A stretch of DNA of 64,000 nt from Cellulomonas hominis. Lineage in GTDB: Bacteria > Actinomycetota > Actinomycetes > Actinomycetales > Cellulomonadaceae. Of the stretch, positions 17,088 through 58,433 are shown in pieces (position 1 is the stretch's first letter; the number at the start of each line of letters is the position of its first letter). Location: assembly GCF_014201095.1 (NCBI RefSeq), contig NZ_JACHDN010000001.1, positions 620,001 through 684,000 on the forward strand. Reading direction: 5' to 3'. Below the pieces are notes generated by a model that ran no database searches, had not been told where the DNA came from, and saw nothing but the letters and a program-made list of their open reading frames with translations. Both the position numbers and the translations under genes were made by a program.

Positions 17088-17138
17088 GCCACCCGCCCTT
17101 CCCTCCGTGGATGCCGCCTCGCCCCGGTCGTCCCCGGG

Positions 17139-17202
17139 CGCCGAGAGTGCAGTAGATGCTGCCTCGCGGCGCCCGAGGGCGACAACTACGGCACTCTCGG
17201 CG
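17139..17202. repeat. Palindromic element A (family 1)
   Basis: A 64-nt imperfect palindrome. CGCCGAGAGTGC (17139-17150) and GCACTCTCGGCG (17191-17202) are perfect arms, with further GTAG/CTAC and CCTCG/CGAGG pairing inside. It is non-coding, between the papain-like gene and deoA. It aligns at roughly 77% by eye, in the same orientation and at equal length, with element B inside mshB (56114-56177). Confidence 0.75.
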
Positions 17203-17275
17203 GGTGGTCGGCGGGCGGGTGGTCGGCGGGCGGGTGGTCGGCGGGCGGGTGGTCGGCGGGCGGGCGGCCGGCGGG
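17203..17275. repeat. 15-bp tandem repeat
   Basis: Four exact copies of GGTGGTCGGCGGGCG (17203-17262) and a degenerate partial fifth copy directly abut element A, in the spacer after the deoA stop. Such arrays often vary in copy number between strains. Confidence 0.85.
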
Positions 17276-17287
17276 TGGTCGCGGCCG

Positions 17288-30789: not shown

Positions 30790-30807
30790 CCCCGGGGGCC
30801 CGCCCCC

Positions 30808-30868
30808 GCAGAGTGGAAGGTTCGACCGGACTCGCCGTCGGCGTGTCTGCTCGAACCTTCCACTCTGC
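30808..30868. repeat. Palindromic element D (family 2), also a terminator
   Basis: A perfect 18-bp inverted repeat (30808-30825 and 30851-30868) with a partly paired centre containing GGCGTGTC. It lies between the converging sdhB and AbiEi/DUF559-like genes. It shares about 80% identity by eye with element E at 32027-32081, including non-paired positions, so it is a repeat copy and not just a hairpin. Confidence 0.85.
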
Positions 30869-30874
30869 GAGCCG

Positions 30875-31909
30875 TCAACCGGCCAGGCGCCAGGTCGCGC
30901 GCCGGCGGTGGGCCACGGCGCGGGTGTGGGCCGCGACCGCGCGGGTCTGCCAGCGGGCGCGGGCCTCCGCGGTGGCCAGGTCCGCCGACGTGGCGCGGAC
31001 GACCTCGAGTCCCGCTGCCTGCAGCCGCTCCTGACGAGCCGCGTCCGCGCTGTGGCGGTCCGCCGCCGCGTGGACGGCGCCGTCGTACTCCGCGACGAGG
31101 CCGCTCCCCTCGTCCAGGACGTCCACGCGGCCGATGAACCGACCGGCTCCGTCGAGGACCACGGCGTTGCACCGCGGAACCGGCAGGCCGGCGGCGAGCC
31201 AGACGAGACGCATCCGGGACTCCTGCGGCGACTCCACGCCGTCGGCCGACAGCGCGAGGGCCCGGCGCGCGGCCGCTACGCCGAGCCAGCCGCGCCGGCG
31301 GCGGATCAGGGCGTCGAGCTCGCCGGCGTCGAGCAGCCCCAGCACGCGCAGCCGGTCGAGCCCGACGACGGCGTCCTCCGCGCGTCCGAGCCGAGCCAGG
31401 TCGAACGCGGTCCGGAGCACCGACGTCACGGGCAGGCCCCCTGCGACCACCCGCTCCTCCGGCGCGACGCGGCTGCGCACGAGTCGGCGCCCGTGACCCG
31501 CGGCCAGCCGCACCTCGGGCGGCGCGAGGAGCAGCACCGGGAGATCGTCCCCGGGTCTGCCGTGCACCGGCACACCGTCGAACCACGGCTGCTCCTCCTG
31601 CCGGCGCCCGGCCCTGCCGCGTCGCCGTGCCGACCCGGACGCCGGCACGGACGCGAGCGCCGTCCGTTCGTGGACCCGCGCCGCGGCCCATCCACCCAGC
31701 GTCACCTCCTCCGGCACCCGCGCCATGGCGACCGCCGTCCGCACGTCCGGGTCCGTGACGTCCGCTCCGGCGACCACGTGCACCCCGCGTGCCGCGGGAA
31801 CGTACCCCGCCCGCACGTCGGCGAGCACGCCCTGCGCGCGGGCGTCGCGCGTGGCGAGCACGGCAGGCAGCACGGGGCCGGCGAGGCGGCCGTCGGACGA
31901 GGTCTCCAT
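30875..31909 (-). CDS. AbiEi-like/DUF559-type protein with PD-(D/E)XK endonuclease-like C-terminus
   Basis: A 344-residue protein. The first 170 or so residues resemble the winged-helix, AbiEi-like region found in many actinobacterial proteins. Residues 228-310 resemble DUF559/Vsr-like endonuclease folds: E230 in SPQES, D263 in GRVDVLD, then AEYDGAVH (E274, D276), and RQERLQAAGLEVVR. Function is unknown; a role in DNA processing or defence is possible but unproven. It is flanked on both sides by copies of one palindromic repeat (D and E), and it separates sdhB from the yihY-trpS group. Confidence 0.65.
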   Translation of the reverse strand: METSSDGRLAGPVLPAVLATRDARAQGVLADVRAGYVPAARGVHVVAGADVTDPDVRTAVAMARVPEEVTLGGWAAARVHERTALASVPASGSARRRGRAGRRQEEQPWFDGVPVHGRPGDDLPVLLLAPPEVRLAAGHGRRLVRSRVAPEERVVAGGLPVTSVLRTAFDLARLGRAEDAVVGLDRLRVLGLLDAGELDALIRRRRGWLGVAAARRALALSADGVESPQESRMRLVWLAAGLPVPRCNAVVLDGAGRFIGRVDVLDEGSGLVAEYDGAVHAAADRHSADAARQERLQAAGLEVVRATSADLATAEARARWQTRAVAAHTRAVAHRRRATWRLAG

Positions 31910-32026
31910 CACCCCACCCTCGACCGCCGGCCGCGGTCCCACCCAACCGAGCCGGCCCCCTTGGGGACGCCCACCGGCGTGTCGCAGACCCGGCGCGGCC
32001 CGCCCCGGGCCTGTGCCCCCGACACG

Positions 32027-32081
32027 CGGTGGAAGGTTCGGACGGACACACCGTTGGCGTGTCCGTCCCAACCTTCCACCG
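32027..32081. repeat. Palindromic element E (family 2), also a terminator
   Basis: Arms of 22 nt with one mismatch (32028-32049 and 32059-32080) around ACCGTTGGC. It begins 8 nt past the YihY stop on the minus strand. It lies in the same orientation as element D, about 1.2 kb away on the other side of the AbiEi/DUF559-like gene. Confidence 0.85.
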
Positions 32082-32088
32082 TGCGGAT

Positions 32089-33102
32089 TCAGGCTGGGGT
32101 GGGCTCCCGGGGTGGGGGGTCGGCGGTCCAGGCCGAGGCCAGGAGGACGATGCGGGCGATCAGGTTGACCCAGACCAGCAGCGTGACGATGACCGTGAAC
32201 GACTGGAGCACCGCGTTCTGCCCCGCGGAGCCCGTGACCACGGACGTGCCGAGGAACCGCACGGCACCGAGCCCGACGGCGGCCACGACCATCCCCTGCC
32301 GCAGGTCCCGCCACGCGGGGCGCTGCCCCGCCAGGACGACCACGATCAGCGCGAACGTCCCGGCGTCGACCAGGAACGCCGCCGCGAGGCCGACCACGCG
32401 CAGCACCGCGGACCCGACCGCCGAGCCGGACAGCCCGAGCGCGTCGAGCGCCCAGTCCGCGGCCGTGGTCGAGGCCAGCGTCAGGGTGGCGGACAGCAGG
32501 ATCGCGAGGCCGAGGCCGGCGAAGCCGCCGAGCTCCCGGAGCTTGCCGGAGACGACGTTCCCGCCCGGGCCGGCGTCGGCGAACATGGCGCGCACGGCAG
32601 TGCGCAGGGCCGCCATCGCGGAGATCGCGCTGACCAGCAGGACCACCGCCGCCACGGCCCCGGCGATCCCGACCCCGGTGCTGAGCACGAGGGTGTCCGG
32701 GTCCACGAGCCCGTCGGACCCCGCCCCGGTGTCGACGAGCCCCGGCAGGTTGGCGTTGATCGCGTCGAGGACCGACTGCCGGAGATCCTCGTTCTCGCCG
32801 AGGACCGCCATGAACACCGTGTACCCGATGGTCAGCCCCGCGAACAGGGAGAAGATGGTCGCGTACGCGATGCCGCCGGTGAGGACGCCCCCGCCCGCGG
32901 CGCCGAACCGCGCGTTCGCCCGTGCCGCGCGGGTCCGCTGCCACCACGCGAGCACGGCCTTGGCCCGGGCGACCACCCCGGCGAACCCGCCGGGGTACAC
33001 GCGGGCTCCGATGTCGGTGCGGTTGCCCGCAGCGAGGTCCTCGGTGGTGCTCACGCCGGCGTGCGCGCGCCCGGCTCCTCGCGGTTCGGCCGGGACTCCC
33101 AT
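32089..33102 (-). CDS. YihY/virulence factor BrkB family membrane protein
   Basis: A 337-residue protein with about six hydrophobic helices. The first follows GGGVLTGGIAYATIFSLFAGLTIGY (about residues 70-94), the usual YihY entry motif. Family members have no settled function; the old label ribonuclease BN is wrong for this family. The ATG at 33102 follows a TAGGGT hexamer by 6 nt. In actinobacteria the gene is often found near trpS, as here. Confidence 0.88.
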   Translation of the reverse strand: MGVPAEPRGAGRAHAGVSTTEDLAAGNRTDIGARVYPGGFAGVVARAKAVLAWWQRTRAARANARFGAAGGGVLTGGIAYATIFSLFAGLTIGYTVFMAVLGENEDLRQSVLDAINANLPGLVDTGAGSDGLVDPDTLVLSTGVGIAGAVAAVVLLVSAISAMAALRTAVRAMFADAGPGGNVVSGKLRELGGFAGLGLAILLSATLTLASTTAADWALDALGLSGSAVGSAVLRVVGLAAAFLVDAGTFALIVVVLAGQRPAWRDLRQGMVVAAVGLGAVRFLGTSVVTGSAGQNAVLQSFTVIVTLLVWVNLIARIVLLASAWTADPPPREPTPA

Positions 33103-55309: not shown

Positions 55310-55315
55310 AGGCTA
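55310..55315 (-). promoter_or_regulatory. -10 hexamer TAGCCT for the DUF6113-like gene
   Basis: It ends 7 nt before the GTG at 55302 and overlaps the last codons of mshB. Confidence 0.4.
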
Positions 55316-56476
55316 CGTCCGGGGGCGCACGCGCGTCACGCCCGGCGGCAGCGGCAGCGGTCCCGCGGGCGCGTGCCCGGGCGCCCAGCGGTACCCCTCG
55401 GCCGGCAGCACGGGCGCGAGGACGAGGTTCGACAGCGCGTGGCAGGCGACCGCGGCCGGGTGGTCCAGCGGCGTGACCGCCTGCACCTGGGTCGCGTGCG
55501 CCCGCAGCGCGGCGAGCACCCGCTCCCGGACGGGCCGCGCGTCCACGGCGAGGTCGGGCTCCCCCGCGGCGGCGACCGACGGCAGCGGGCCGGCCGGGTC
55601 GGGCAGGGCGAGCGGCCCCTCGCGGGTGGCGCGGCGGTCACCGGACCCGGCGGCGAGCACCGCGCGGGCCGCCGGGTCCTCGGCGAGGGCGGCGTACCCG
55701 GCCCGCAGGGCGGCGGGCTCCTGCACGGCCCACGCCACCGCGGGCGCCCACGCGGGGTCGGGCGCGGGAGTCGTCGCCGCCGAGTGGAGCGAATCGCCGG
55801 ACACGCCCGGCGTGTCGTGGCGAGACCCTCCACTCGGTGCAGCGCCGGGCGCCCACGCGGGGTCCGCGGCGAGGGCGACCGCCCGCATCGTGACCTCGTG
55901 CGCGCGGACGTGGTCCGGGTGCCCGTAGCCGCCGCCCGGCTCGTACGTCACGACCAGGTCCGGCCGCCGGGCCCGCAGCAGCCCCGCGAGCCGTCCCGCG
56001 GCCTCGTCCAGCGGCACCCCCACGAAGGCCCGGGCCGGCACCTCGGCCGCCGCACCGGCCTGCCCGACCCCGACCCAGTCCATGCCCGAGTCCTCGTACG
56101 GCCCCGGATCCGGCACCGAGGGTGCGGACGATGCTGCTTCCGGCGCCCCGAGGCCCGCATCTGCTGCAGTCTCGGCGCCGCCCAGGGGCGGGAGCGTGTC
56201 GAGGAAGACCTGGTCCGCGCCCAGGGCGTGCACGGCCGCGGCCAGCTCGGTCTCCCGGTGGCGGGCCAGGGCGGGGCCGTCGCCCTCCAGCGACGCCAGC
56301 CGGGCCCCGATGACCTCGCCCCGCTCGCCGCGGGTGCAGGTCACGACCAGGGCCGGCAGCCCGGCCGCCGCCCACGTCGCGAGCAGCGCGCCCGACGTCA
56401 GCGTCTCGTCGTCCGGGTGCGCGTGCACCGCGAGCACGCCACCCGTGACGGGCGGCGTGCTCGCGGCGGGGGTCAC
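55313..56476 (-). CDS. mshB: Mycothiol biosynthesis deacetylase MshB, with two in-frame palindromic insertions
   Basis: A 387-residue zinc deacetylase that removes acetyl from GlcNAc-inositol in mycothiol synthesis. Metal ligands are H20 and D23 (HAHPDDE) and the H186-P-D-H189 motif (GYGHPDH). The M. tuberculosis enzyme has about 303 residues. Much of the excess here lies in residues about 100-121 and about 213-233, which are encoded by palindromic elements B and C. Both preserve the reading frame and are Ala/Ser/Pro/Gly-rich, so they probably form surface loops. Activity is plausible because all motifs are intact. Confidence 0.9.
   Translation of the reverse strand: MTPAASTPPVTGGVLAVHAHPDDETLTSGALLATWAAAGLPALVVTCTRGERGEVIGARLASLEGDGPALARHRETELAAAVHALGADQVFLDTLPPLGGAETAADAGLGAPEAASSAPSVPDPGPYEDSGMDWVGVGQAGAAAEVPARAFVGVPLDEAAGRLAGLLRARRPDLVVTYEPGGGYGHPDHVRAHEVTMRAVALAADPAWAPGAAPSGGSRHDTPGVSGDSLHSAATTPAPDPAWAPAVAWAVQEPAALRAGYAALAEDPAARAVLAAGSGDRRATREGPLALPDPAGPLPSVAAAGEPDLAVDARPVRERVLAALRAHATQVQAVTPLDHPAAVACHALSNLVLAPVLPAEGYRWAPGHAPAGPLPLPPGVTRVRPRT
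55741..55864. repeat. 19-bp direct repeats bracketing element C
   Basis: CGGGCGCCCACGCGGGGTC occurs at 55741-55759 and again at 55846-55864. The unit-to-unit distance is 105 nt (35 codons), so the mshB frame is kept. The protein shows the duplication as DPAWAP at residues 205-210 and 240-245. Confidence 0.85.
55780..55837. repeat. Palindromic element C (family 2) inside mshB
   Basis: A 58-nt palindrome. The outer arms are CCGAGTGGAG and CTCCACTCGG, with inner arms TCGCC/GGCGA and GACACGCC/GGCGTGTC and a one-base centre. It shares the GAGTGGA...CGGACACGCC...GGCGTGTC...TCCACTC frame with elements D and E. Confidence 0.8.
56114..56177. repeat. Palindromic element B (family 1) inside mshB
   Basis: A 64-nt element aligning over its whole length with element A (17139-17202), including GATGCTGC and GGCGCCC in the same places. 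The outer arms pair imperfectly (8 of 10), and inner arms GATGC/GCATC are intact. It encodes residues 100-121 of MshB. Confidence 0.75.
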
Positions 56477-56483
56477 GGGGCGC

Positions 56484-58433
<1,950 letters not shown>

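Follow-up and report, generated by a model that had tools for sequence, protein, structure and literature searches.

Copies of two short palindromic repeat families lie in frame within mshB of Cellulomonas hominis

How does a conserved enzyme gene come to contain palindromic DNA whose relatives lie mostly between genes? The question is raised by mshB, for the deacetylase of mycothiol synthesis, in a 64,000-nt stretch (the window; G000:C1:620001-684000) of the 4.49-Mb single-contig genome of Cellulomonas hominis (G000). An initial annotation of the window had described two in-frame palindromic insertions from two repeat families in this gene, and covariance models of the two families (here C and B) now place one member of each there (Table 1); the limits first given (55780–55837 and 56114–56177) were off by a few bases only. 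By the list of open reading frames, the mshB frame is unbroken across both elements. The product of the adjacent upstream gene is taken, by reading alone, to be TypA/BipA. Gene order around mshB, including this neighbour, is common to two relatives (G009 and G015), and the three mshB genes are therefore orthologous by position.

Table 1. Features of the mshB locus and related elements (window positions unless marked as genome positions)
Feature	Position	Strand	Remarks
mshB, deacetylase of mycothiol synthesis	55313–56476	minus	387 aa, GTG start (ORF list)
Gene upstream of mshB	56484–58433	minus	7 nt from mshB (ORF list)
Element C in mshB	55777–55839		63-position palindrome, residues about 213–234; model R1, 78.3 bits (inflated, see text), E 5e-13
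Segment without counterpart in P0002	55760–55864		105 nt, 35 residues; 55741–55845 equally valid
19-nt direct repeat beside C, copy 1	55741–55759		flank comparison
19-nt direct repeat beside C, copy 2	55846–55864		offset 105 from copy 1
Element B in mshB	56113–56180		68-position decayed palindrome, residues about 99–122; model R2, 72.3 bits (inflated, see text), E 3e-14
Intergenic C copy, between convergent genes	30806–30869		genome 650806–650869; fold z −8.6 for 30808–30875
Intergenic C copy	32023–32086		genome 652023–652086; fold z −8.5 for 32024–32090
Intergenic B copy	17136–17203		genome 637136–637203; model R2
IS30-family element	genome (G000), about 478125–479290 (L058, L051)		others at L035/L292, L060, L045/L273

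Relatives of both elements were found by BLAST before any model was built. Among the matches listed, the best non-self match of the mshB C copy had 92% identity over 63 nt (E 2e-18, genome 3496024–3496086), and that of the B copy 87% over 63 nt (E 7e-16, genome 3407307–3407369). At E ≤ 10, at least 69 matches were obtained with the C region (40 of 74 candidates scored) and at least 50 with the B region (40 of 82). Covariance models of 63 and 68 positions were made from 24 C and 17 B copies; both training sets included the mshB copies, whose own scores are inflated by this. With 150 candidates scored for each model, at least 134 C and 76 B strand matches were found in the genome at E ≤ 0.1, and merging of strands gave at least 67 C and at least 41 B places, a few weak ones included. 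Further genomic copies of both elements thus exist, and the non-coding relatives first noticed in the window, two of C and one of B, stand (Table 1).

Places were divided into coding and intergenic with our own codon-usage gene caller, which is unbenchmarked. Intergenic positions were assigned to 64 of the 67 C places (29 convergent, 21 + 9 tandem and 5 divergent) and to 37 of the 41 B places (15 convergent, 11 + 8 tandem, 2 divergent and 1 with one side unknown). The three C places overlapping gene models were mshB and two places near modelled gene ends, 2285339–2285402 (L251) and 174076–174139 (L233), which lie 13 and 17 codons from those ends and are not interior; these two copies may lengthen two proteins C-terminally. 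Three B places fell in gene models, namely mshB and two weak single-strand matches with ordinary coding scores (318379, E 0.012; 4404810, E 0.022), which were rejected as false, and a fourth, partial overlap was a half-element adjoining an IS30 copy. C and B are thus mostly intergenic, mainly adjoining the 3′ ends of genes, and among the places listed in this genome no gene other than mshB has a convincing copy deep in its interior.

Some copies are clustered. Three B elements stand in a row between convergent genes (G000:C1:2879507-2879699, L270), and four C elements lie within a single gap between genes, about 1 kb long (G000:C1:573422-574047, L240). The intergenic B copy of the window is abutted by a tandem GC-rich repeat with 15-nt spacing (17197–17278). 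In the genus, at least 10 of 60 genomes matched C and at least 8 of 60 matched B (E ≤ 0.001, 15 candidates scored each, G000 included). Part of the relatives' matches, 48 B and 15 C places, was examined. Seven of these B places overlapped gene models, five of them mshB (G009, G015, G042, G055 and G063) and two at modelled gene ends; the single overlapping C place lay in a model whose 88 codons beyond C score −4 as coding.

The C copy in mshB folds far better than shuffled sequences (z −6.0). A near-identical protein, P0002 (97% identity over 312 columns, insert sites excluded), lacks exactly 35 residues at the C site and reads LAADPAWAPAVAWAV there; it is known as protein, not as DNA. The corresponding 105-nt extra segment consists of palindrome C, flank and one copy of a 19-nt word. 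This 19-nt repeat is the longest among 67 C flank pairs, the next longest being 12 nt; a 12-nt flank repeat accompanies the C copy most closely related to that in mshB (3496025). Words of at least 11 nt were present in 1.5% of control flank pairs, and about one is therefore expected among 67 C pairs. Because P0002 lacks the segment and a 19-nt direct repeat flanks it, the C copy looks recent. In protein sequences, C-like peptides (RRDTPGVSG-like) fill the same loop in P0006, P0036 and P0009.

The B copy of the window did not fold better than chance (z −0.88, 36 of 200 shuffles as good), and is therefore described as a decayed palindrome, assigned to B by its likeness to the family. B-related palindromes occupy the same mshB loop in five relatives, G063 (77.6 bits), G009 (56.8), G055 (40.7), G042 (37.7) and G015 (37.4), and those of G042, G055 and G063 retain a long-hairpin fold. 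These five loci were fetched as mshB, and each also surfaced in genome-wide element searches, although the search that found the G042 copy used that copy as query. The B model gave no match in the mshB loci of G052, G017 and G014, and the loop is short in the DNA of these three and of G010 and G058. Since related palindromes fill this loop in five relatives and are missing from others, the B copy looks older than C. The gaps in orthologues that the initial annotation had proposed to look for are present: as far as listed, in 31 of 38 extracted proteins and further alignments, almost every row is without the C peptide, and distant rows have a short B loop. Neither of the two observations that the initial annotation had named as refuting was made.

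Two forms of B were distinguished. One, common in G042 and G055 and without a match in G000 or G063, is the form that the mshB copies of G015, G042 and G055 match. The G042 mshB copy is 91% and 90% identical to copies in G015 and G055, versus at most 85% to the other scored copies of its own genome. Changes at the B site were counted on a tree built from 74 MshB rows after the insert columns had been taken out; a site was called filled at ≥ 28 residues and empty at ≤ 19, and four rows were left out. By this length rule, under which a filled site need not hold a palindrome, 41 rows were filled and 29 empty; the 70 proteins then require at least 15 changes (17 under a looser rule); two changes suffice on the 11 genomes in which the DNA was seen. 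P0037 differs from P0021 and P0039 in insert type and immediate flanks, while the backbones hardly diverge (end branches 0 to 0.015). A protein-only test for hidden palindromes gave p ≤ 0.05 for 1 of the 41 B-site inserts and 0.79 for the DNA-proven G042 hairpin, and is powerless either way.

The translated product has the fold and conserved motifs of the MshB family. Its top three sequence matches in the PDB were M. tuberculosis MshB (4ewl, 1q7t and 1q74), which also matched best by fold, and the top eight fold matches of its predicted structure were MshB chains. At 387 aa, against 299 aa (4ewl) and 303 aa (1q74), it is indeed about 80 residues longer than the M. tuberculosis enzyme, as first noted, and the motifs around the inserts are intact: AHPDDE and GHPDH, which we take to be the metal motifs of MshB, are invariant in 46 aligned proteins. 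It missed the TIGR03445 cut-off (167.2 versus 224.35 bits); P0001, P0002, P0003, P0029 and P0070 scored 164, 187, 177, 199 and 227 bits, and with the C segment the score lies about 20 bits below that of P0002, which bears on annotation. In a structure model from a 46-row alignment (mean pLDDT 84), runs below 50 covered residues 1–4, 101–113 and most of 215–231; apart from the N-terminus, all fall inside the B and C segments, which are predicted to be disordered. Backbone dN/dS of mshB against seven relatives was 0.24–0.29 (Nei-Gojobori, own script; neighbouring genes 0.07–0.66), and the gene is under purifying selection. P0001, which represents a 99% cluster of 11 sequences and was the sole member examined, holds both inserts in frame with few substitutions.

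REP sequences, short extragenic palindromes, are associated with a RAYT (Y1) transposase, a link also reflected in the title of PMC2817692. The corresponding domain, PF01797, had no match in G000, with positive controls in 6 of 14 genomes; this screen, which covered PF01797 only, removes the usual REP partner. The longest word shared by the two flanks averaged 6.8 nt over 67 C places versus 6.6 nt in swapped-flank controls, and 6.3 versus 5.9 nt for B, so target-site duplication as a family trait was not above control for either. Over the window and 84 fetched stretches of the genome, 1 of 118 matches to the C arm and 2 of 39 to the B arm were solitary, outside listed elements; one of the two B arms was the remaining half of an element split by IS30, and no parent element of C or B was found there. 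The 18-nt C arm had no exact match in viral contigs. An element of the IS30 family, about 1.2 kb long and encoding a 391-aa transposase (NF033563, 240 bits), is inserted in B hairpins at four places flanked by broken B half-palindromes (one end located at the fourth); these were found via the B halves and are not a census of the element. It uses B as a target, from which it does not follow that it moves B.

Our preferred reading, which we hold to be quite probable, is that mobile or copied REP-like hairpins were fixed in two tolerant loops of mshB and are translated, with the enzyme kept. Two short, apparently non-autonomous hairpin families (REP-like, 63–68 nt) would populate gene flanks, mainly 3′, in the Cellulomonas clade, and one member of each would now be fixed in mshB, in two of its loops where extra residues are tolerated. 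The B copy would have come earlier, related palindromes occupying the same loop of several species as a result of gain, loss or exchange of alleles. The C copy would be a recent addition of 105 nt by which the frame was preserved; a 19-nt direct repeat flanks it. Once translated, both may form disordered loops outside the folded core. The data on which this reading draws are the family resemblance, position and frame of the segments, the absence of C from P0002, the purifying selection and the low predicted order. A mobile or copying process would have inserted the segments, which may be near-neutral, and enzyme activity was presumably retained. It seems unlikely to us that mshB is a true hot spot, with two unrelated hairpin families entering the same two loops again and again in different species, either through some benefit of the hairpins there (as RNA or DNA) or through targeting of the gene.

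Could the hairpins in mshB instead be kept for a function, terminator- or attenuator-like, tuning genes on the same strand as perhaps at gene ends? Their distribution is suggestive. In the fetched stretches, gaps of at least 80 nt with an element (n = 90) comprised 39 convergent, 27 + 17 tandem and 7 divergent, versus 8, 43 + 35 and 59 among those without one (n = 145), so that elements are enriched in convergent gaps (Fisher p 3e-12) and depleted in divergent ones (p 1e-8); the stretches were chosen for holding elements, and only the contrast between gap classes is meaningful. Pairing in B also appears to be maintained. In an alignment (A4, MAFFT) of 52 copies from six genomes (17 of 41 own and 35 of 48 relatives' places, the other 13 left out without a score rule), 87.3% of cells pair and double changes occur at 16 of 26 pairs (127 cells), with a covariation score of 0.250 versus 0.119 (sd 0.009) for shuffled and at most 0.085 for slid alignments, a result favoured by reading the structure from the same alignment. 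The long hairpins retained in mshB of G042, G055 and G063 point the same way. Yet arm homogenisation during copying could also yield the covariation, no T-rich tract was found in the 20 nt beyond either arm (7.5% and 8.6% T), much of the pairing is gone from the window B copy, and B-site occupancy varies between filled and empty rows; we regard such a function as improbable. For C (A1, 24 of 67 places) two double-change pairs were seen, a number reached by 30 of 500 shuffles, the copies being too alike to inform. An Rfam search of five loci returned only mir-4436 at 26.9 of 74 bits, which was taken as chance.

A different account of how the palindromes spread, by allele recombination between related strains after one or few insertions and not by repeated insertion, has more in its favour. 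It would explain the different inserts and flanks of P0037 and P0021/P0039, the two changes that suffice where DNA was seen, and the closeness of the G042 copy to copies in G015 and G055; against it, the C-free P0002 and the 19-nt direct repeat fit local insertion, and the C-like peptides of P0006, P0036 and P0009 share a loop in different surroundings. We consider it possible as the main route, though not the likelier one. Ordinary growth of low-complexity loops, with a coincidental resemblance to repeats, could be argued from the variation of both loops without a recognised element, e.g. in Promicromonospora (L093), in G036 (L069) and, at the C loop, in several Cellulomonas proteins among other relatives. 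A short duplicated peptide, TVQDDDTVQDDD, was seen before DSGM in the same MshB loop of P. thailandica (L093), and the site therefore tolerates length change beyond the genus. Coincidence is nevertheless hardly conceivable beside non-self BLAST E values of this order and the many further genomic places. Nor is mshB at all likely to be a decaying pseudogene gathering insertions: it does hold two insertions and scores below the TIGR03445 cut-off, but the insert-free P0029 falls below it too, and the intact frame, the invariant motifs, the low dN/dS and the in-frame inserts of P0001 speak against decay.

Among known systems, the preferred reading of inserted and translated hairpins has its nearest analogy in the Rickettsia palindromic elements, which two papers (PMC2229807, PMC10969869) describe as 105–146 bp long, inserted in frame in many reading frames of conserved protein genes and also intergenic. 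The initial annotation had drawn this parallel. It holds for palindromic repeats lying in frame in a conserved gene, and the mshB inserts may work like the Rickettsia elements; it fails for spread over many genes, since here mshB alone is convincing among at least 67 C and 41 B places. The units are also shorter (63 and 68 nt), although the C segment with its direct repeat measures 105 nt. Titles cited in PMC2229807 mention palindromic repeats with coding potential in Wolbachia and Methanocaldococcus jannaschii.

REP sequences are reported to be short, palindromic, repeated, near gene ends and rarely overlapping coding regions (PMC12306157), 21–65 bases long, and targets of insertion sequences (PMC1525189). 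A GTAG or CGTC tag at one end is a further mark of REP sequences. C and B, at or just above that length, resemble such extragenic hairpins in being short, multicopy, mostly extragenic and near gene ends, and B in being targeted by an insertion sequence, here of the IS30 family; they differ in the lack of a PF01797 match in G000 and in the translation of the mshB copies. Like bacterial MITEs and ERIC elements, for which in-frame fusion of intragenic copies is reported (PMC10969869), they are short inverted repeats without a gene of their own; unlike MITEs, the families show no general target-site duplication, the mshB C copy alone having its 19-nt repeat. A search of open-licence papers found none on palindromic elements in Cellulomonas or mshB.

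Rickettsia is the main known source of in-frame palindromic repeats (PMC2229807, PMC10969869), and mshB provides an actinobacterial case. It allows direct study of how an extragenic repeat turns into a protein loop, with P0002 lacking the newer insert and the other copies nearly all extragenic, in an enzyme whose M. tuberculosis homologue is structurally solved. If the hot-spot reading were true, mshB would be a natural system for extragenic palindromes becoming protein.
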